From Cloeon dipterum (taxonomy: Eukaryota; Arthropoda; Insecta; Ephemeroptera; Baetidae), in assembly GCF_949628265.1 (NCBI RefSeq), contig NC_088786.1, positions 32,447,681-32,511,680 of the forward strand: a stretch of 64,000 nt of DNA, written 5' to 3'. The notes under the pieces are model-generated. The model saw nothing but the letters and a program-made list of their open reading frames with translations, had not been told where the DNA came from and did not search any database. Positions 32,933 through 58,215 of the stretch are shown here, one piece after another (within the stretch, counting starts at the first letter, position 1; each line of letters starts with the position of its first letter). A program made the translations under genes and the position numbers.

Positions 32933-34522
32933 CTAAATTTCTGTGTAGAACGACGGTCTCTCAATACCAATGAGTCGGAAAGTGTTTGGCTGGAGCCATA
33001 TGGTGTTGATGCCAATGGCAAAGTAGGTAATAAACTTGTAGGTCAACTCGACAATGGTTTGCCGCTGGTTGGCCACGTCCCTTTGCTTCATGGAGTCGCG
33101 GTCCAGCTGCAGCACAGCGCACATTGTAATGTACGAGGACCACCTGAAGATGGCCCTGGTGGCAATTGTGCAGCAAAAGCCAATCACAGTTCTCAGCAAG
33201 AGAAGCCCAAACTGGAGAGTTTAAGTTTGATTAAGGCAATTATTATTGCTTGACATCTATTTGTACCATTTGATATGAAGGCCAAATGATGGTGTAAGGC
33301 GGCTGCAGCAGAGATTCTTGCATGAAACCCATTTTGTAATTCAGCCAGGAAGCCAGTTGGATGCCGGAGCTCACTCCGATGATGACAGTAGTGTCACCCC
33401 TGCGACAGGAAATAGTGTTAAAAATCAGAAAAATTTAACAAAGGCGGGCGGACCTAGTGGGCGTCCACTTATCACTCTTTGGGGCAAGTATGACGAGAAA
33501 CACTGCAGCTAAAAAAATAATGTACGGAGACCAGTCCGAAGTCAAGATCCACGGATCCAAAGCGTCTTCCAGAGGAATGATAGGGATCATCAGCAGGGTG
33601 ACGAGCACCAGTCCACCAATCACGTCCTTTGAGTAAGTTGTTCATTTTCAATAAAAGCACTCTCTGTTAAACTCACTGATATGGAATGCATTCCAAGATA
33701 CAGTCTGCTAACACAGACGACGGCACACCAAGTGATGGCAAACATCAGTCCAATGGTAAAATTATACTGGAATAACAAAAAATATTTGGTAGATTAAATT
33801 TGACACTAGCTTGAAGACAAACCTGGTAACGATTGACTGTGTAAAAGAGGATTGAGAACGGGATGGCCACTCCAACCATGGCATGTGTTGAAGGCATCCC
33901 ATACTCCAGAGACCATTTCTTTTGGACTCTAATGGCTGGTGGACACGCTGGACGGGGCCATCTCACAATGTCTTTGATACCTTGTCCTACATCAAACATA
34001 AATAATTACTCAGATGCAAATTTGTTTTGGAGGCACACGAAATAATGACCGAATAAGCATTGCACAGCGGAGAGTGGATTTTTCCTCAAATTATAAATTT
34101 AAGGTTTCTATATTTTTAATAAAGAAATATAATAAAACATGAAACTCACCTATGTACATAACAATGGCCCAGACCATTACAAATCTGCGTCCAACCGCCC
34201 CGTCCACATTCCAAAACCAAAATGGAATGAAGCAGGCGTAAAATATTTCATCTCCGAGTATCGTGCCGAATGTGAAGAGGTAATACCAGAACTTATTGGT
34301 CACTACAAAGTCTTTAGTATCCGCTTCGGAGTCAGACGATGGCAAACTTGCCGGCTCGTTATCATCCGACTCTGATTTTGACTTGCGGCGCCGCAAGTTG
34401 AGGATTTGCCGTTTTTCTTTGACTCCATTGCTCTTTAGCTGTGTTTTTCGGTAAACTCCAAAGAAATTCTGGATGCGAAGAACCAGGTGAGGGTCGTTTA
34501 AGGACTCGATCCAAGCCCACAT
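32933..34522 (-). CDS. SGPP: Sphingosine-1-phosphate phosphatase (SGPP1/2 family)
   Basis: ER membrane lipid phosphatase that dephosphorylates sphingosine-1-phosphate to sphingosine. Coding exons in order: 34522-34150, 33986-33823, 33766-33677, 33626-33454, 33399-33267, 33211-32933. They join in frame to 403 aa, close to vertebrate SGPP2. All three PAP2 phosphatase motifs are intact: KDIVRWPRP (residues 129-137, K-x6-RP), MPSTH (155-159, catalytic His159), and SR-x5-H-x3-D (199-210, His206). Several hydrophobic membrane spans follow. The N-terminus (MWAWIESLNDPHLV) resembles the family start, and a TAG lies in frame upstream of the Met, so the start is well supported. A Lys/Arg-then-acidic Ser-rich linker spans about residues 33-65. 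An upstream 5' UTR exon probably ends at 34620 (donor GTACGT), joined to the acceptor just before 34531. Intron 4 has a weak donor, GTCCGC. Confidence 0.92.
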
Positions 34523-34662
34523 ATTCAGAATCTGTAAAGGCGGTTTCATTTTAGACTGATCTGCCGACTGCAGGTGAGAAACAAAAACACTGATGCTACT
34601 TTATGTAAGTGATACGTACCCAGGTTTCAAGCACGAGTGAATCACTAAATGCGTAAGCCTAG

Positions 34663-40100: not shown

Positions 40101-43100
40101 TTAAAGTGCTTGCCCACTTTCTGGCACATTTTGAAAGATTTGATTTTAGAAAATCAATGATACATCAACAACTTATTCAGTTATGAATTAAAATATAGTT
40201 ATTTAACATAGTGCCAGTGCCTAAAAAATAATGTAGAATAATTCTCGGAATTTTTAATCAAATTAAATAACATTTCAGGCAGCAAATATCTCTGAGAGAG
40301 GTACAAAGAGGTCAATGGACACAATCCCATTAGAAGGGAACGCGGCAACAACAACTGCTGCTGCTACTACCAGAGGAGATGAAATCGTTAACCCACCTGC
40401 AAAGAAGGTTGGAGAAGAGACCATCTCATCTTCTACATCCGCTAGCATTCCCCCCCTGAACCCTGCGAAACAAAACTTTGGCTCATTTTACCAACAAACA
40501 AATTATGTCAGTCAGTCTGTTCGTGATGATAACGACTCTTTGGATAGCATGTCTATCTCGACATTCTGCAGCCAAGAGCCGCGGCGTCCGCTGAACGCGC
40601 CGGTGCATGGCGCCACTCTGCCCAGTTATGTGCTGAGAAACCTGACTCGTTTGATACAGAAGTACCCAAAAGGAATTGAGGCTTCTCAGCTCTGCAATAT
40701 GTACAAAGTAGGTTTATTTTCCTCTCTGCATGAATGTAAAATGAGCCAAAGTTAATTGCTGCTTTATTTTGATTTTCAGAATTAATTTTTTTCCCTTTCC
40801 AGACCTGCTATGACCAAGTTTTGAGAGTGCAAGACTATGGGTTTAACACCCCTGAGGAAATGGTCACCGCCATGCCTGGTCAATTCATCATGAGCGGCAC
40901 AAACAACAACATCATGGTATCCTGCCCTGCTGGTGCCCCATCAGGTAAGAAGTGTTAAATGTGCGCAATTTTTGCACATATATTAAGATGTATGGCATTG
41001 GTGTGTTACTATTGCAGTCGCAACAGTCCCTAAAGCAACAGTTCAAACAGAAGTTGCCGCAGCCCCAAGAGCAGCAGTTCCTTCTGATCCACGCCGGCTT
41101 CTACCTCTGGACTTAAAAATGAGGATTAGAGAAATTTCTTCATCTTTCAAAAATGGCGCTACACCTGAAGCTATTGATCAGCGATATAAGGTATACTGGC
41201 GACTATTGCTTCCAAGGAAACCGATGTATTGTAACATCATGAGTTAAGAGATATCACTAGTGGATCATTTTTTATTCTTCTGAGTTTGTGAGTTATGGCG
41301 GGGCCCCAAAGGTTACAAATCACTTCTAAATTGAATGTGAAGCCAATTTTCATTCGCTATATTTTATAGGTAGATTCTACTTAACAAAAAAAAAAAAAAA
41401 AAAAATCAATCGGTGCGGGTCACTTTCACCTGTCCAGTTCAGTCCTTTATATTATTTAGACTACATCCGGGAAAATGACCAATGGCTCTGTAAAGGTTGG
41501 AGATAATTCATAATTTTTTTGTGTGACTGGGAGGTCATGTAGCTTTATTTTTCACGAAGATAAAATTAATAATTCCTGGGAGGCGAAAAAATGGCCACAT
41601 TGGGCCCAAGCTCCATGTTATCCGCTTGGCGGTGTTATTGGGACCAGGTGAGCTCATAGCCCGACGGGACGTGCTGAGCAGAGGCTAAAAATAGTGTATG
41701 CTTCAATTAATTTTGAATTTGTCAAATTCTTAAAATCCAATCGTTGAATCGTAAATTCACACCACCAGGCATCATATAAGAAAGGTTACATGAATTCAAA
41801 TGATTTCTTAAACTTTGAAATGTTATAAAAAATCAAGTTTGTCAATTAATGTCTTGTTAATTCTCATCTACTTGGAGCAGGCGCTTTACAACACTGGCCT
41901 TGATCCTGCTAGATACGGCTTCAACACTCTCAAGGAAATGCTTCAAAATATCGATGGGATTAAAGTGGAGACTTTGGGAGTTATGACTAGGGTGATGCCA
42001 AACATCAGGACCACAGCCCCCAATTTGATAGAGACCACTAGGGCGATGCCAAACATCAGGACCACAGCCCCCAATTTGATAGAGACCATTACTATAAACG
42101 ATGAGGTGGAACCTCTAATAATTTTTCCTTTGATTTTAATATTTTCATTGATATTTTGCTAGTTCTTCATAGACAAGCATGATAGATTTGTCCGCGTCGG
42201 TTACGTCCTAGATGCGATGCCCAACAAGTTCACCCCGTCTCAGCCTAATATGTCTGTTGTTGTGTGTGAAGTCTACTCTCCCGCCCGCTTCTACATCCAA
42301 TACCAAAAATTCCAGACCAAAATTGATATTTTGATGGAGGAGCTAAGGTACTCGCGTAAATTTGCAGTACATTTTTAATTTCTCATGGTAAGCTGCCTCC
42401 AGGAAATGCTACAGTGGCAATGTCAATGACTTTCGTCTGGCCAGAATGGAAGAGGGAGTGTATGTGGCAACACAATATATGCAAAAGTGGCACCGTGGTG
42501 TGATTAGCAAAGTTCTAAGCCACACTACAGCTATGGTATGGTTGTATATTTTAAATTAGTGTGTGCTCTTTGTTTTCAAGTAAAGTCTTATGATTGAGAC
42601 CTACAAAAGAGAAAAATTCTTGGGACTTTCACTTCTTGGGAAATCACTCCTAAAACATGCTTATCAAAGAAAATGTTAATTGTTCTTGGCACTTTCTAAA
42701 AGAGTTAAAAGTCTTTTGAGAAGATCTTAGCATTTGCCAAAAATCAGTAATTTTGTAACTATTTTAACTGCTTAGCATATAATTTAAAATTTAAATACTC
42801 AACAACATGAACTTTCACCAGCTTTCATTATTTAAGTTTTAAGTTAGACCTGGAAATTTTTTGTCATGAAACTGCCATAATTATTTTTTCAGTCTTTTAA
42901 ATATTCTCACCTCATTTTGTCTCTTCAATTATAGTGTTTAAAATTAAAAGCCATATTTTAACTGGAAACTATGGATTTTTTAATTTCCCTTCCTTGTAAG
43001 CTTCAAGAATCATATGAATTGAGGAGCGCCATCAAGGTATACCGATTATTAATTAATTTTGACATAGGTTTCCTATGTGGACTTTGGAACCGACGAAGAA

Positions 43101-45925: not shown

Positions 45926-46264
45926 TTTGCAAAAACTCTTGCATGAGATGTAGTCTTTTATTTAATTTGAAACTTATTTTGCTCGGGACAAATTCATAAA
46001 TCAGCTAGCTAGCTTTCTCTTCCCTCTGCACTTTTTGCTATCTGCAGCCAACTCCCAATTTCTTTGGCGCACAATGAACTTCTGTTATGATCCAATGGGG
46101 AACAACCACAAAGTGTTTTGATTATTGTCACGCCAGAGGAGCACAAGCGAATAAAAAACAAAATTGCCGCTTTCTCTCAATTGAGCGGTGTGCGTTAAAC
46201 GCTTGAGCCACAGCGTGTCTCTCAGGGATCGCTCCAGCTTTGTTCCCTCTCCATGCCAAACGCA

Positions 46265-46271
46265 TATAAAA
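46265..46271 (+). promoter_or_regulatory. TATA box of the His-rich peptide gene
   Basis: TATAAAA 50 bp upstream of the ATG at 46321. Allowing about 30 bp to the transcription start, the 5' UTR would be only about 25 nt. Confidence 0.65.
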
Positions 46272-46320
46272 GGCGAGCACACGAGCCAAATGCAGCTAAT
46301 TTTGATCTCGCGGTGCAATC

Positions 46321-47013
46321 ATGAAGTTCCTAGCCGCGTTTGCCTTCGTCCTAGCCACTTTGTGCATCAGCCTCGGATGGGGCATGCCCGCACAAGACTT
46401 ACAAACTGCTGCTTCAGGACACCACTGTGAGTATTAAAATGTTACAATGTGCTAATTTTAGATTTTAGACTTTTTTAGGGTCCATCGCTTTGAATACGAA
46501 TTTTAATCTTGAAAATGAATCCAGGCAATTAAAAGTAGCAAAGCACTTTCCTAAAATATTAGGTTTTTTCTTCATTGCTAGTTTCATGCAGTGGAATTAT
46601 TGGCTCTATTCCTCAATCTTCGTTAAAACTTTTTCATTAAATCCATTTAGCGCCTCATATAATCTTACAGATTAAATTTAAAACAATTTAAGGTGCAGTA
46701 GATTTCAGGCAAAGTTAATTTAATTCTTGGTTTGCCGTTGCTATTATTTAATAAATTTGTTTAGCCGATTTTGCAGCACATTTAATTCTTCATTAATCGA
46801 TGAATTGTACAAATTTATAAAACTGGCCTTTTATTTTTCTTTTTAAATGACGTACAACAATCATAAACGATATTTTTTGTTTTAGCTCATGGACATGTGC
46901 AAATCAAGGTTTACCGCGGTCCTGACTCTGGTCATGGCAATGAGAAGGATGGACACCACGCACCCTTTGGATACTGGGTTAAGCAGCCTGCTGATGACGA
47001 GCACCACCACTGA
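46321..47013 (+). CDS. Secreted histidine-rich peptide, unknown family (77 aa)
   Basis: Two exons, 46321-46426 and 46886-47013, join in phase 1 at good splice sites (T|GTGAGT and TTTTAG|CT) to a 77-residue precursor. Residues 1-21 form a typical signal peptide (MKFLAAFAFVLATLC core, likely cleaved near LGWG). The mature peptide has ten histidines (34, 35, 37, 39, 52, 59, 60, 75-77) among about 56 residues, ends in EHHH, and carries no cysteine. Its middle reads VQIKVYRGPDSG and its end HAPFGYWVKQPADD. It has its own TATA box and AATAAA (47072-47077). I do not recognise the family. Clustered His suggests metal binding or pH-dependent behaviour, which is inference. The gene model itself is well supported by promoter, signal peptide, splice sites and polyA signal. 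Confidence 0.8.
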
Positions 47014-47750: not shown

Positions 47751-47899
47751 GCCATGCAGCGTAGCACAAACTGTGAGTCGTGGATAAATTCGTGTCCTCG
47801 ACCGCCGCGATGGCCTCCGAACTTTGCGCCCTTGGCAGAGGGCAGCAGCTCCGAGTGCCTGGCTGGCTGTGTGTCGCGGCCGGCGTGCCTCCAGAGGAG

Positions 47900-50800
47900 A
47901 TGCAGCCACCCCCGAGCACACTCGTCTGTCTGCTGCTGCTGGCGGGCGCCGCCGTCGCGGTGCCACGCGAGCGGCTCTTTCCCTTCGGGCGCCAGTACGG
48001 CGACTCGCTGCTCACGCCCGACGACGAGGGCTCCAGCCCCGAAATCGAACTCGCCGTCCCTGTCAAGTTCTACGACGAAGAGTACAGCACCATTTATGTG
48101 AGTCTCCTTTTTTTTGGTTATTTAATGCCGCGCATTGCTATACATCATAAAGGCAGAGTGTGCCTTTTAAAAACGATACGGCATTTTTCTATTTCGGTGC
48201 ACATGCATCTCTCGCTCTGAATATAGAATCGGCACCCCTGTGAGCCGCGCTCTCGGTTATAATCCCTGCATCATTCAGGCCAGGGGTTGAAGGTGCGCGT
48301 TATTTTAAGCCTCTCGCCGCTTTGAGCAGACATGCTCTCCTGACGACCCTCTATATTACAAGGCGCAGCTGACTATTATGTATTTCTTTTACTCTGTGAA
48401 AAGCAGTGATTATCCACTGGCGGTTGACCTCACTCTGTGTACCCTCGATTCCTCCACAGGGGTTCAAAGCCGCGACCTTTGTTAGACTTACTTCCTTTCC
48501 TCGTTCTATTCAAAGCCTCGCGCGACGGCCCCCCAATAAACAAACAACTAGATTGGGAAAAGTATTCTCCAGGTCAAAGGGCAAACCATTCTGGCAATTG
48601 CGCTAAGTAATTGTTATTGCTTTTCGCTGCACATATATTCGAGGCCGGTCTGGTTTGAAAATGAGAGAATAGGACGCAGCAGTCGAGAAAATCTTTCTGC
48701 TTTCGAATACAATTTTTTATAAACAATAAATCTTTGCTATTTATAATTGTCTTTGAACGTTATCCAAGAACAAAGATAATATTTTCTCACGGCAGCAAAT
48801 AATATTATCCTATTGTGATTTAATGCTGTGTCTGCAAAGAAACCTCTAGCATTTTTTCGTGAACTTGAAATATTTCGCTGTGTGTGACACTTTCAAATTC
48901 AATCTGACGTTATCACGGCAGCTAGATATTGGTGCATAGTCGGGTCACGAAAGGTTATCTGTGACTGAGCATTCAAAGGCCGAACGGACTCGCTTTGATT
49001 CAGTTTATTTTACTCCAAATTTTAAATCAATATTATGTATCGAAATTCGTGCCTCAACTTTTAGGTTAGCATCAACGGATTGGTTTCCTTCCTGACTGAG
49101 ATTCCAGCCTTCTACAACATGCCTTTTCCTCTTGAATACCCGGTGATCGCGCCTCTCTACACGGACGTCGACACCAGAAGAGGCGGATCTATTTTTTACA
49201 GGTTAATCTCGCAATGAAACCCTGCGGATCCGACCGTCCCTAACAAAATATTTCTTTTACACAAAAGCTGTGCAATTTTAGCATGGACCAGTCAAAATCT
49301 AGCGAATTACTTTTCAGTAACAAACTGGACATTGTTTGTAAAAAAATTTAAAAGCCTTTAATTGGTTTTTTCAATCACGATGGTTTTTATATACATTGAG
49401 ATTCTTATTTATGAGACAAAGCGAATGGTGGGAGCCATTTAAAATTTACTGAAAAACCATAAATAAATTTAACGTTTAGGTTTAGTTTTTGTCAGATGGT
49501 GCAATAAGCCTTAATTCATACAAAAACTGCAAGCAGACGAGATTTTTTAGCCTAAATTAAAAATATCTATCAAATTTGCAAAAAAATCGAGAAATAGTCA
49601 AAATTTAAAAAGTTAAACATCGATCAATTTGTCTGAATACCAAAAAATTTCATATTTTTTCCAAACATTTAAATGGAAATCGCCATAAAACGCCATTTCA
49701 TTGGTAATTTTCTTCTAATTTTATAAAATTATATTTGTCTGATGCAATAAAATTTTAATTTCGGTCGGTATTCAGGGTTTCGCTGTCGGTAAAAATGTTT
49801 GCATCTCGCAATCGGATTTCAGGGAGACGAACGATTCCACCCTCCTGACGAGGGCGTCCGAGACCATCGGCTACAGCTTCTCCAACGGCAGGGGCTTCCA
49901 GGCCACGAGCCTTTTCATCGCGTCGTGGATCGACGTCGGCTACTTCGAGGAAGGCTCCGATAAGGCGCGCTCCGTCCCGTCGTAAATGCCAAATTTAACT
50001 TTTTCCCAATTACAGGCCAACACATTCCAAACGGTGATCGCCAGTGACAGTGCCACGTCCTACGTGTTCCTCCTTTACGCCGACCAGGGCGTCCAGTGGA
50101 TCCAGGGCAAGGGCAAAGGCTCCAGGGCGGACGCCAGGGCGCAGGCTGGGCTGATGGCGCACGACGGACGCCTCACGTCCCTCAGAGGCTCTGGCACCGA
50201 CCAGGTCAAGAATCTGGACAAGTGCGTCGCTCGTTTAAAATTTAAATTTCATCAATAAAACAATTATTTTAATTAGATGGACGAATGCCGATGAACCAGG
50301 CATGTGGATTTTCTTCACTGGCCCTTTGAACGAGGGAGAAAACGTTCAGCAGCCAGACATCCCAGTTTCTTGTAAAACTTTCATGCATAATTTGCGAGAG
50401 CAAGAAGTTTTAACGCTGATATTTTTAAAGTTGTACCTCAGGGAGGAGCTGCCACTTGCTCTTTTGGCGCCAGCGAGTGTCACAGCAAGGCCGAGTGCGT
50501 CAACTATCCCGACGGCTTCTGCTGCCTCTGCCAGGATGGCTACTACGGAAACGGCAAAAACTGCTTGCAGGATGGTACTAGAAATTTACTGAACTTAATA
50601 CTACCAAAAATTGGATCGTAATTAATCATTATTTGATATTTTTATAATGAATTGGAATTTAGTTTGAATTTTGCGCGTAAAATGATTTCATGTACGAAAA
50701 AAGAACAGAAGAAAATTTTAAAATCGTTATTTTATGCCTAGGAATCCCTGGATATATTCCGCTCTTACTTTTTACCTCAAATGTGTTCACTGAAGTTATG

Positions 50801-53800
50801 TTTACATGGACCACCAGTCCATTGTTTCAATCTAGTTTTGTTATTTAGCTACGGACAGGACAATTTTTTAGGGAAAACTTTGAAATCATTTTAAGAATAC
50901 GATTTTGGCGCAACCGTTATGAATTGTGGAATCTCCTTGACGAGACAAATCGATTGGTGGTCGGATATTTACCATGGAGGTGATATCCGGCGTCTATGGG
51001 ATATTATAGTTAATTAATAATTTAAAATTTTGAGAGCTGATAGAATTTGCTATTGTCCATATTACGACTTTTTTGTTTATTTGAGTATTAAATTACATAA
51101 TTTTAACTCTTGATTTAATATTTAACAAAATTTTGAATTATTTTACAAATTTTTTTCTATACCTTTTCTTGCCATTTTCTTCTAATTTCATGATAAGTTG
51201 ACAAGTTTGAGGTAAAAAATTCACATGCTAGAGAGGAACGTAAGAAACGTACTCAGGGTTCCCTTCTACAATATTGTAATCGAGGAAATAAAATTTTGCA
51301 GATATTCCGCTGAGGGTGAATGGAAAAGTGTCTGGCACCTTGAACGGCATCAGGCTGGATCAACTTGATTTGCAGTGCTACATTGTGACGTCGGACACGA
51401 GGGCGTACACAGCGATTTCCAAAGTGCCGAACGAGCTGGGCTTCGACATGCAGAGTCTCAACGTTATCGGCACCTCGCTCGCCTGGTTGTTTGCCAAGCC
51501 TACCAAGAGTGCCAAGAATGGATTCGAGCTCACAGGTTGAATTAAATACAAACGCGAATTCACAAATCTAACAGGGAGAATTTTCAGGCGGCGTTTACAA
51601 CCACACGTCGTCAATTTACTTTAGCAGCACTGGCGACAGAGTGACTGTCGTCCAGAGATTCCTGGGGATGGACGTTTTTGACCAGCTGAAGACTGAAATT
51701 TTTGTTACTGGAAGCATGCCGAGTATCGCCGCGAATAACCGCATTGAAAGCGATGATTTTGACGAAATATACACCAGAACTGGGCCAGGTGAGTGCGAAT
51801 TATTTACAAATAGCAATGATAGTTTAACACAAATGTTTTTAGGTGTGGTCAAGGCTCATCATAACAGAGAAATAAAAATCGGGGGCAGCGACAATATACT
51901 GTCTTTCACGGTCGACCAGACCATTGAGTACCAAGAGTGCGCCGCCCAAGAGTCAGACGTCACCACGCTGAGGCTCAAGTTGGAGAGGAACTATATTTTG
52001 TACGAGGAAAGGGAGCAAATCGTACGATACGCAACAAATAGTAAAATAGGTCCCCTCGGAGGTAAAATTTGGTGAAATCGCGTTTAGAATTAAATTGATT
52101 CGAGGTGTGCTGCAGACGATGATCCGTGCAGGGAAAACAAGTTGAACTGTGGAGAGCACAGCACCTGCTTGGTCGAGAATGATGAAGCCAAATGCGTTTG
52201 TGAGAAAGGGTTAGTAAATTATAATTCATTGGACTAGAATGAGCGAGAATTTTAACTTATATAATGTTTTAATTATATAATAACTAAATTTAGACGGTAA
52301 ACATATACAATCTTTTTAAATGGCTATATAAGTTCTAAATGCATAAATCTGATATCATCCTATGCTACGCATTTTTTCAAAAGGCCCAAAATAGATATGT
52401 ATTTTGAACAGTGTATCATTTGTAAAAATTGCGGTCAACTTGATGAGTTTTAATTGAGCTCTTTGTCCGGTAACCTTATGACGAGTTCAGAGGTCTTATT
52501 CTTTTTATGAAAAAATGAACAACAACTGTTACACATTAAGATATCCCTATATTCATTAATATTTAAGCAATTATGCTAAAATTCAGGAGAAATGACTTGC
52601 AGGTAGGCAACCTGCGTGATTTGGATGTCAAGGAAATGCCTAACTCTTGAACTCGTGATAATCTTGCAATATATAACTCCAAAAAAATTGATTCAGGTAC
52701 CAATTTTTGTACGACGATGGGACAAACGCGCCGCACTGCGTGGACGTGAACGAGTGCATCACCGGCCAACACCGCTGCAGTCAGGAGGCAATTTGTCTCA
52801 ACGAACCTGGCACCTACCGCTGCCAGTGCAAATCTGGATTCAGGGGAGATGGTCACATTTGCGAAAGTGAGTTTTAATTTAGTTCAGCTTAAAGTAACCA
52901 AAAATTTTGGTTCTCATTACGGGAATTTAATGCACCAAATTAAAAGAATATCTTCATAAAAATTAATTTTCAGAGCTGTTTTTAAAGTGCATAAAATGTT
53001 TTTTATTCATATAATGATTTTTTGAGGGTCAGAACTAAAAGCCCGTGAGATTCCTCACAAGTACACCAAGTTTCAAAGCGGCAATCGTAGTATCAAGTTT
53101 AAAAACCGGCCGTGCATGACACTTTTAAATTAAAAATGTGCCTTACGTTAGTAAAACCAAATTTTCAAGTCCAATTTTCTTAAACACTCCTCAGATAACC
53201 AAATTGAATCAATTTACGTCAATTGCAACCTTCCTGAGTGTCCAAACACGAAAAATTGTCCAAATAATCATTGATTTTGCTGGTGCGCAGTTTAAATTTG
53301 AAGTCAAAGTAATAATATAAATCATCTCGTAAATTTTTAAAATACAAACGGTTAAAAATACTTTCTAAATTTTGACATTCAATGTGCCCGAAGGGCCAAG
53401 CTTACCAAAAATTTGATGTCTCGTGTTCCCTTTATTAACATTGATTTGAATTTTCTGTCGGCTAGGACTGCCGACTTGCAGAGAGGCGCAGTGCCACCCT
53501 GACGCAGAGTGCCTAGAGAAGCCGTCGGGCGTGCCCGAGTGCCGTTGCAGACACGGGTTCAGGGGCAACGGTCTGCAGTGCGAGCCCGAGTACACAGGCG
53601 AGTCGTGCAACGTGGCGCACAACTGCTCGCCGTACGGCGTGTGCAAGTTCCTGGCGCAAAGCAACACGTTCAAGTGCTTCTGCGCGCCTGGCTACCAGGG
53701 CGACGGCTACAGCTGCGAGGCCGCCACGGCCTACAGGTACCTCGACCCTTCGGCGCCGAGCCCTGAGTGCAGCCAGGACGAGTGCCACTGCTCCGGCGGC

Positions 53801-56800
53801 TACGTCTACGCCAGGGAGCTGCACCGCTGCCTCGTCGAGACCACGCACTCCACCCACCAGGAGGAACAGGAAAATATCGAGGAAGAGAGCGAGCAGGAAC
53901 GTGAGTCGCCTTTTTGGTGCATTTTAGCAGGCTGATCGATCCATGTTTCGTCTAGTCCTAAGTAGACCGCTAGTCGAGTGTTTTCAAGGTCATTGCTTCT
54001 GCCCTCCGCGCTACGAATTAAGGGACAAAAAGTGCAGGCCGATCCCTGGAGCGTTGGATCCAGGTGTCAAACCTTCAGGCAGCACCCTTCAAAGTACCAT
54101 TTTAGAGTTTAAAAAAATGTTCACCGCAGCAGACATCTAAAATTTGAAATGAGATCATTCAGCAAATGTTAAAATTGATATTATTCTCTTTATCCAGAGT
54201 CTTGCGACAAGAACAACTACATTTGTCACGCACAGGCTCGGTGCGTGTACAACCGCGCCACCAGAAAGCACGAGTGCCAGTGCAACGCAGGTTTCGAAGG
54301 CGATGGAGTTGAGTGCTCCGAAATCGGTAGGAATAAAAATGAAATATTGTGAGAAAATTAAAAAAAACGTTGTTTAATCCAGAGTATTCGTGCAATGAGC
54401 TGGACATTTGCCACGCGAACGCCACGTGCCAGTACAACGACAGAATTGGCAAGTACTTGTGCTCGTGCAACAAAGGATTCGAAGGCGATGGATCATTCTG
54501 CGTCTCTAAAGGTACAGTTATTTTCACTTTTCTTTGAGTTGTCCTAACTAGGTCACTCAACCCATGGCACTAACTAATATTCCAATTTTACCCGTTCGCG
54601 CGGACAATAATGGAATGAAACACCTGCATAAACGATTTAGGATGATATAAAAATCCAAAATTAAAAAATATTTTGTTGGGCGTGAATTTTCTTTCCAAAA
54701 TTTCTGTCCCATTAACTAAGGAATATTTCACCATTTTGTTATTTATTAACTTTGCACGCTGATAAAATAAAACCGTTCATCAGGAATTTTTTTTATTTTG
54801 CACCCAGGAAAGGAATAAAGGTTTCATAGGATTATTAGCTGTTTTAAGTTCCCAAGGAATTAATTTGCAGGTGAATGCGAGGGGCACTCTGACTGCGGAC
54901 AAAACGCCCAGTGCATTTTCGACACAAACACCAGGATGTACAAATGCATGTGCAACGTGGGTTTCAGGGGCGACGGCCGCTTTTGTGAAGACGACAAAGG
55001 TGCGAGTGAAACATTTTCAGCCGTCCCGACCAGCAATCGAAATGATAAAATTTCAGAGGCGACCTGCCGGCAATGCCACGAGAATGCTGAGTGTAACTTC
55101 CTGCGCGACCTGAACCAATACAGGTGCGAGTGCTTGCCAGGCTACCAGGGCGATGGCAGGCACAGGTGCGAGAAGGTCAAGACTGGCTGCGACGTGCTCT
55201 ACGATTGCGGCAGAAATGCCGAGTGTCAGTATAACCCATACGAGAGCAACCACAAGTGCGTGTGCAAAAATGTGAGTTTTTTATCCAGCACCAAAGTAAT
55301 ATTGTACTCTGATGAAATGTTTAGGAAAATAGCAGACAATTTTTTAATCCTGCAAAATGAGGTTTAATCTGAAAATTGCATGTTTTAACCCAAGGTATTT
55401 TTTATTTAAAATTTAAAGTAGACAAATTTACGTGGAAAAGTTAAAATTTAAAGCAGAAAAATTGCATAGACTATGTGACATTTGTGCGATAGTAAATTCT
55501 TAATTAATTAATTTTCGTTGAAATTCGTTATTTTTCTGCTTTTCATCATGTAATATATTTTTGTACTCGTATTTTGAAGGGATTCTCCGGTGATGGTTAC
55601 TGGTGCGTGCCACAAATCACTTGCGACCAGGACCAGACGATTTGCAACGACGACGCCAAGTGCGTGGCGGATACGTTGACGCGACAGTACGTGTGTCGAT
55701 GCAACGACGGCTTCACTGGTGACGGCTTCTCCTGCAAGCCGAGCAAAACGCACGAGGGCAACTTCTTGCTTGTCAACCAGGGCATGGCCACCTTGCGCAT
55801 CCCCTTCAAACCCACGCACAACAACAAGGGCAGGATCATCCAGATACATTATTTCCAAACTGCAGTCGGTGAGTCGAAAAATTCAACTTAGAAGAAATTT
55901 ACAAAATTTAATTAAGAATTGAATGTGAAATAAACTCAACTAAAATTTAGTGTAAAAATTGCCGCTAGTAATGTAACAAATTAGTACTTTGAAAAATGAG
56001 AAATCAATCTTAGATAAATTTTAAAATTAATTTAAATATACTAAAAAAATTATAAATTTTATCATTTCTCACAGTAGTTTGTGTTACATGCACTTCCCGA
56101 AAATGTACGAATAAATTTCAAATGTTAATAAGAATGAAAGGGAAAAGATTGTTTTCCTTTTAATCATCGTAAAGAGTGTAAATGTGTTTAACTCTGTCAA
56201 AAATTGCAAATGCACCTTTAATTATTAATATTTTGCCCACAGGTATCGATATTGACTGCCACGAGGGCAGAGTGTTCTGGAGCGACATCAATGGCAAGGC
56301 GATTCGCAGTGCCGACTACAACGGCGTCAACAGCAGCCGCTTCCTGGGCGCCGAAATCGAGTCTCCTGAGGGCATCGCCGTCGACTACGTGTCAAGGAAC
56401 ATTTTCTGGACTGACTCGGCGCTGAACCACATCGCGGTCGCCAGCCTCGACGACACGGACAAGCGCAAGATCCTGATCAACGAGGGCCTGATCAATCCGA
56501 GGGGCATCGCTGTCTACCCGTCCTTTGGCAAGCTCTTCTGGAGTGACTGGAACAGGATGAGCCCCAAAATCGAGATGGCGAACATGGACGGTACCGACAG
56601 GTGAGATTTTAAATTGCATTTTTTAATCACATCGCTGATTTTTCTAGTCGATTCTTGTGCAAGAAAAAAAATAATTTGATATCGATTTTAATTTCTAACT
56701 TTTTAAAACACTTTTGGAATTTAAGGCGTTTTTTTTCAACATAAATAGTAATTTTCAGGCATGTTATGAAGTTTGATTTATCGGGCCACTGAATGTTTTT

Positions 56801-58016
56801 GGAAATCAATTCCAGACAAGTCTGAGTGTAAAATATTATCATAATAAACATCCTCATGTTCGATTACCCTTTGACAAAAATTCAATGATTTTCTAAAAAT
56901 TCATCCCCAACGAGTTACGAGGGAAAAATTAGGAGTGAAAACGGTTTTAGCTTATGTTTTTTAGGTATTGGGTTAAAACTGTGCAAAATAAGAGGTTATG
57001 TCCATTTTTTTGTGGCAAAAATCCACGTTTTTAATCATTCAAAAAATAATTCTAAAAAATTGTATCCGAGCATCACTGCTCCAATTTCTGGATCTGTTTT
57101 TCTCACTTAGTTGGCTACGTTTAGAGCAAAGAATATCACCATTCCAGGTGGGACCGTTTTCAAATTTGAATTTGAATATCCCGGAGTCACCGGGAACTGA
57201 CCTTGACCTGTGACCTCAGGAATGAACTCTTAAGTGTAATTAAAAGTCCTTCATCGAGATGAGTTCTACGGTTTTTGGTTTGAGGCAGTAGCATCAATTG
57301 GGACGAAGTTGTCAAAAGCCGTGACTCTTTTAAAAAACCACCCTGAAGTAGAGGTTTGAACCTTACAAGGGTGGGCTAAATGCACGCGGAAAATCAGGTA
57401 AATCTGCTGACCCCTGCCAAGCGATAGAGGAAAAATATTGACGCGGTAGCAAATAATAAAAATTATTAATAGAAAAGAATGTGATTATTTTTTTAACTGA
57501 CAAAATTCATGTAACCAATGTTATTAACTCTGCAGGTCTGTTTTCGTGAGGGACAACATCCGGCTGCCGAACTCGCTGATCGTGGACGCGGAGCGGGACG
57601 AATTGTGCTGGGCGGACGCGGGCACCAAGAACATCGAGTGCATGGGCGTGCGGAACGGGTACCGGCGGACGATCGTGTCCGAGTGCGAGTACCCGTTCAG
57701 CGTGGCCATGTCGAGCAGCCACTACTACTGGACCGACTGGGAGACCAAGAAGGTGGAGGCGGCGCTGCGGCCCAGCGGCCAGCGGGTGGCGGCGCTCGAC
57801 GTGCCGCTCGGCAGCAGCGGCCACCTGTTCGGCGCCGTCGTCGTGCCCGACACGTGTCCCGTCTACTACACGACGTGCCAGTCGCCGGACGCGTGTCCCG
57901 AGAACTACATCTGCCTGCCCAACGGCCGCAACGGACGCAGCTGCATCTGCCCGGAGCAGTCTGACGGCAGTGAGGACGGCGACGACGCCCCGAGAGAGTG
58001 CAACGACCTTATCTGA
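47900..58016 (+). CDS. Ndg: Nidogen (entactin), basement-membrane linker
   Basis: Secreted glycoprotein linking laminin and collagen IV. Twenty exons: 47900-48097, 49065-49201, 49823-49964, 50016-50221, 50277-50371, 50431-50574, 51302-51535, 51588-51788, 51843-52061, 52116-52209, 52697-52866, 53466-53900, 53956-54093, 54198-54326, 54383-54511, 54871-54999, 55057-55271, 55580-55868, 56243-56600, 57536-58016; about 1380 aa. Order: signal peptide (1-20), NIDO domain (about 40-260), EGF (about 265-305), G2 beta-barrel (about 308-525), a run of EGF modules (about 530-1050), then a YWTD propeller (about 1105-1330; VFWSD, IFWTD, LFWSD, LCWAD, YYWTD) and a C-terminal Cys-rich module. An in-frame ATG lies 30 codons upstream at 47810, but the one at 47900 starts a clean signal peptide. 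Exon 3 seems to end at a GC donor (AAG|GCGCGC), since the only in-frame GT would leave a 42-bp intron. The exon 5/6 junction is my least certain. Confidence 0.93.
57198..57216 (-). promoter_or_regulatory. Cluster of three nuclear-receptor half-sites
   Basis: Three direct TGACCT hexamers lie at 57198-57203, 57204-57209 and 57211-57216. On the minus strand this reads AGGTCA-C-AGGTCA-AGGTCA, a DR1 joined to a DR0, and also contains the extended monomer site TCAAGGTCA. It is in intron 19 of nidogen. Confidence 0.35.
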
Positions 58017-58215
58017 GCGCCTTTTCACCTTCTCGAGGATCGCGGATGCTTTATAAATAGTAACTTAAGGATTTTAACTAGAATTTTATAGCCTCTAGTT
58101 TTTCTTCCGTTTGTAAATCTGGCAGTTCCTTCGGTAGGTCTCGCATTTTTTTCACAACCGCATTTTCTACTCCATTTAGTTATTTTATTGCCTATTTTTA
58201 TGTGCTATATTTTTA

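Follow-up and report, generated by a model that had tools for sequence, protein, structure and literature searches.

Arthropod genomes carry many small secreted peptides. The tick antimicrobials microplusin and hebraein are His-rich, helical and held together by disulfides between Cys residues, and holotricin 3 and tenecin 3, the Gly/His-rich beetle antifungals in which Gly is dominant, also contain His. In the excerpts on which we draw, microplusin and hebraein are described as working through acid-dependent activity or Cu2+ chelation (PMC5198042), and holotricin 3 is listed at 84 aa with a value of 64.1, which we take as percent Gly from a column whose header lies outside the excerpt (PMC5031766). 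His-rich proteins are also found in the Nereis jaw, spider fang and insect mandible; the portion of the source at hand gives 27 mol % His for the metal-hardened Nereis jaw protein and reports His-metal interactions in biting parts (PMC6477608). Two further groups of comparison are the RR cuticle proteins, defined by the Rebers-Riddiford domain (Chitin_bind_4, PF00379), and neuropeptide precursors, which contain dibasic cleavage sites.

We analysed a 64-kb window (the whole stretch of 64,000 nucleotides from Cloeon dipterum to which the positions below refer) in which a predicted gene encodes a 77-aa precursor. Its translation holds ten His, at residues 34, 35, 37, 39, 52, 59, 60, 75, 76 and 77, bearing out an earlier note on this DNA that had described a His-rich peptide. 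That note had also claimed a signal peptide, and the N-terminus is signal-like by sequence, with a nine-residue hydropathy that peaks at 2.84 inside residues 1-12; cleavage is predicted, the probable site being immediately C-terminal to G21 or a few residues further on, which would leave a mature peptide of about 52-56 residues. Within the mature part the His residues form the groups HHSHGH, GHG, GHH and HHH, and this clustering exceeds the expectation from composition alone, with 311 of 20000 shuffles being equally clustered.

The likeness to each described system is partial. With holotricin 3 and tenecin 3 the peptide would share the character of a short secreted insect peptide with His; however, Gly makes up just 7 of the 56 residues of its longer mature form. 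It resembles microplusin and hebraein in its His clusters, whereas its mature part is free of Cys, as the earlier note had it (the lone precursor Cys, at residue 15, lies within the signal peptide), and its low-confidence structural model is stranded with no helix. Extracellular His-metal coordination, which we propose here, would be the feature in common with the proteins of jaws, fangs and mandibles, although His accounts for 10 of 56 residues in a non-repetitive sequence, below the content given for the Nereis jaw protein. The Rebers-Riddiford domain is absent from the peptide, which matches no Pfam family at E <= 10. The dibasic sites KR, RR, KK and RK are likewise absent from all 77 residues, and the peptide is therefore not an ordinary neuropeptide precursor.

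The earlier note had called the locus a complete small gene with a TATA box, one phase-1 intron and an AATAAA signal, and our coordinates agree with that model to the base (Table 1). The start of TATAAAA lies 56 nt before the ATG, and transcription would be expected to begin near 46295. In-frame stops precede the ATG at 46267, 46297 and 46303, and unspliced translation from ATG 46321 terminates after 38 codons. Speaking against the model, the final 50 nt of the intron contain no branch-point-like YTNAY, and a second acceptor passes the same filters from this ATG, with exon 2 beginning at 46582 and a product of 54 residues. Base composition changes along the gene, with a GC fraction of 0.547 in exon 1 and 0.531 in exon 2 versus 0.279 in the intron; upstream it is 0.304 between -500 and -250 and 0.464 over the 250 bp leading up to the ATG, and the 60 nt beyond the stop have 0.217. 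When 15 motif patterns were tried on the 500 bp upstream, with no chance control, the TATA box was the only convincing match.

Table 1. Features of the peptide gene and of its downstream neighbour (window positions).
Feature	Position	Strand	Basis or remark
TATA box TATAAAA	46265..46271	+	sole TATAWAW match on both strands in 500 bp upstream
Exon 1, coding part	46321..46426	+	signal-peptide-like start and residues 22-35; translation
Intron, phase 1, GTGAGT...TTTTAG, 459 nt	46427..46885	+	sequence reading; splicing predicted
Exon 2, coding part: His-rich aromatic C-terminal part, stop TGA	46886..47013	+	translation
Poly(A) signal AATAAA	47072..47077	+	58 nt past the stop codon
Nidogen-like gene	47777-58064	+	G2F (E 1.9e-24), EGF and LDL-receptor class B repeats

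The chance of encountering such a model was gauged with a set of mini-gene filters that were fixed post hoc, after the gene had been seen. They demand a TATA box, a signal-like N-terminus, a GTRAG donor with a pyrimidine-rich acceptor, an ORF and a poly(A) signal. ATG 46321 is the sole ATG in the 64-kb window that passes them all, and it is again the sole full model across the surrounding 264 kb, where it is one of six ATGs once the TATA filter is dropped. When the window was shuffled in 250-bp blocks with dinucleotides preserved (n=3000), at least one full model arose in 11 shuffles, rising to 288 when the TATA filter was omitted and to 33 when the poly(A) filter was; an initial smaller run had given 0 of 60. 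These figures flatter the gene because the filters were written with it in view.

Codon usage gives the frame no support. Measured against a reference of 1350 codons from nine segments picked by eye, the CDS scores 0.383 versus a mean of 0.462 for its own base shuffles, 1567 of 2000 of which score at least as high. All five other frames of exon 1 outscore the model's frame, three of them containing stops, and one of the five other frames of exon 2, likewise open, does the same. The 90 stop-free noncoding windows of 42 codons score below the gene (maximum -0.08), a difference that reflects base composition. For a peptide so short and skewed, we read codon usage as uninformative. A sceptical account would hold that there is no gene here, just a GC-rich stretch that contains the signals by accident, or that the model is wrong and another acceptor is used, and it can point to the unsupported frame, the post hoc filters, the passing acceptor at 46582 and a homologue not found in Pfam, NCBIfam, PDB or viral and prokaryote genomes. 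Against it stand the rarity of full models among the shuffles, the sharp GC steps at both exons and the ordinary spacing of parts that are all in order. We regard this account as quite improbable. The locus is very probably a genuine gene.

The earlier note could not place the peptide in any family. This holds for Pfam and NCBIfam (0 families at E <= 10) and for PDB, but not as a claim of novelty, as these collections are thin for arthropod orphan peptides and the result is therefore no proof that the peptide is new. The search covered Pfam, NCBIfam, PDB, viral and prokaryote contigs and the gene's own genome, so other arthropods may well have homologues. The sole PDB sequence match was to uL15 (E 2.3), which we took as chance. 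Among viral contigs 12 stretches fitted the search pattern and none was confirmed; among prokaryote genome contigs 57 did so and one was confirmed, a Duganella sacchari stretch matching at 65% over residues 9-25, which spans the hydrophobic signal segment only and was rejected as a chance match. Four short strings from the peptide were not found in the literature searched.

Within its own genome (10 contigs totalling 190,111,064 bases, five of them 33-43 Mb long) the gene appears to be single-copy. Searches with exon 1 and exon 2 recovered the gene itself only, among the best-scored candidates, and tblastn over the 264 kb around it found no second copy, the best other match having an E of 0.38. 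The degenerate pattern FGYWVKQP, allowed up to three mismatches, occurs genome-wide at 26 places (14 forward, 12 reverse) versus 25 when the pattern was reversed as a control; only the gene matches with none, and the remaining 25 places all carry three.

Several observations on the same assembly concern other features. None of the 10 contigs has a TTAGG dimer in its opening 3 kb, and the excerpt available reports that Odonata and Ephemeroptera lack the motif and that Diptera lost it separately (PMC8977481). Three of the ten contig starts (L008, L011 and L013) hold a repeat whose 10-mers recur 32-40 times per 3 kb, and four (L005, L009, L010 and L012) hold an AT-rich repeat with ATAACATT. A search for odorant-binding proteins, of a kind that reads short exons poorly, gave one match in four candidates; 191 such genes are reported for Cloeon dipterum in the part of the source consulted (PMC7250882). 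The COX1 search returned one nuclear fragment, which contains stops and falls under the cut-off.

The peptide gene lies between two neighbours on the same strand. Upstream, the coding exons of a Tudor-like gene on the + strand reach about 45777 as read by eye, and one exon carries a Tudor domain match (E 2.1e-4, 21.8 bits) slightly below the curated cut-off of 23. A 51-bp tandem duplication at 41986-42088 (two copies, 98% matches) apparently lies inside an exon of this gene, again judged by eye, and since the unit corresponds to 17 codons the reading frame would be kept. Downstream, the start of the nidogen-like gene was placed near 47900 from its ORF, the first-exon stretch having no Pfam match of its own. 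Farther away, the - strand has an open frame of 169 aa at 34094-34600 that resembles a portion of a membrane protein, perhaps a sphingosine-phosphate phosphatase, and has no Pfam match at E <= 10. GC in 4-kb steps moves from 0.44-0.48 over the first 32 kb of the window to 0.37-0.42 over the second half, and neither an Rfam search at gathering thresholds nor ARAGORN with the bacterial code found anything in the window.

Single-sequence AlphaFold modelling of the exon-2 part alone (41 aa) gave three strands and no helix, with a mean pLDDT of 69.8 and a pTM of 0.37, and the other four models scored 46.7-58.7. With one sequence as its only input, this fold is of low confidence and a beta core is weakly predicted; a Foldseek search of PDB with the model returned five matches at E <= 10 and none at E <= 0.001. 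For the 56-residue form we calculate a net charge of -2.62 at pH 7 and +4.83 at pH 5.5 (pI 6.32).

Our best explanation, which we offer tentatively and rate a little short of probable, is that the gene is genuine, apparently present in one copy, and encodes a secreted His peptide that binds Zn2+ or Cu2+ extracellularly and responds to metal and pH. Its established part consists of the gene anatomy, the signal-like N-terminus, the composition and the calculated charge. From these we infer that the transcript would be spliced, the signal peptide removed and the peptide secreted, whereupon the His groups, arranged around a short and possibly beta-stranded aromatic core, may coordinate Zn2+ or Cu2+, as their composition suggests. 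A charge switch would make the peptide, slightly anionic at neutral pH, cationic under acid conditions, and it would most likely act in body fluid or as part of a layer outside the cells, such as the cuticle or the lining of egg or gut. The full anatomy, the rarity of the model in shuffles, the His clustering and the calculated charge switch speak for this explanation; codon usage, the low-confidence fold model from one sequence and the lack of a conservation-showing homologue in the databases searched speak against it. His content alone does not prove metal binding.

The earlier note had proposed metal binding, an antimicrobial role or a cuticle role, any of which may apply. Two narrower forms are compatible with our explanation. 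The peptide might be a structural component of the cuticle or of an egg covering, with zinc or its own His and aromatic residues providing the cross-links, as its content of His, Tyr, Trp and Gly would allow and as the His-metal hardening of insect mandibles, described in the portion of the source seen, would parallel (PMC6477608). The genome is also rich in cuticle protein genes, with 94 Chitin_bind_4 matches listed; however, none lies within the peptide gene, the nearest on the contig among those listed is ~142 kb off, the identified neighbours are the Tudor-like and nidogen-like genes, and the peptide is short and non-repetitive and has no chitin-binding domain. Taken by itself, we find this form rather unlikely. 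An infection-induced antimicrobial peptide of body fluid or gut, acting in a pH-dependent manner or by starving microbes of metal, seems unlikely to us, even though the product is small, signal-like at its start, His-rich and by calculation cationic in acid. A loose NF-kB-like match, GGGATCGCTCC, lies at 46225 close to the TATA box but is one of the 15 patterns tried without a chance control. Antimicrobial peptide genes are often multiplied, unlike this apparently single-copy gene, and no Pfam family was matched; moreover, the calculated negative charge at pH 7 disfavours an ordinary cationic antimicrobial peptide. Hebraein and microplusin, as far as the cited excerpt describes them, provide a precedent for the defensive reading (PMC5198042). 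We slightly prefer the role in cuticle or egg coat over defence on account of the peptide's negative charge at neutral pH, and the two are not separable here.

We think it doubtful that the gene stands for a lineage-restricted family of its own, as founder or only known member and so far undescribed in the literature searched, whose secreted, His-rich peptides lack Cys, bind metal and have an aromatic core of beta strands. The gene is one well-formed orphan of modest interest, and a new kind of system is not established. Should the peptide be expressed and bind metal, an arthropod genome would be seen to encode a compact metal-binding peptide that acts outside the cell, and this peptide would be useful for work on cuticle hardening, egg coats and metal-based defence.
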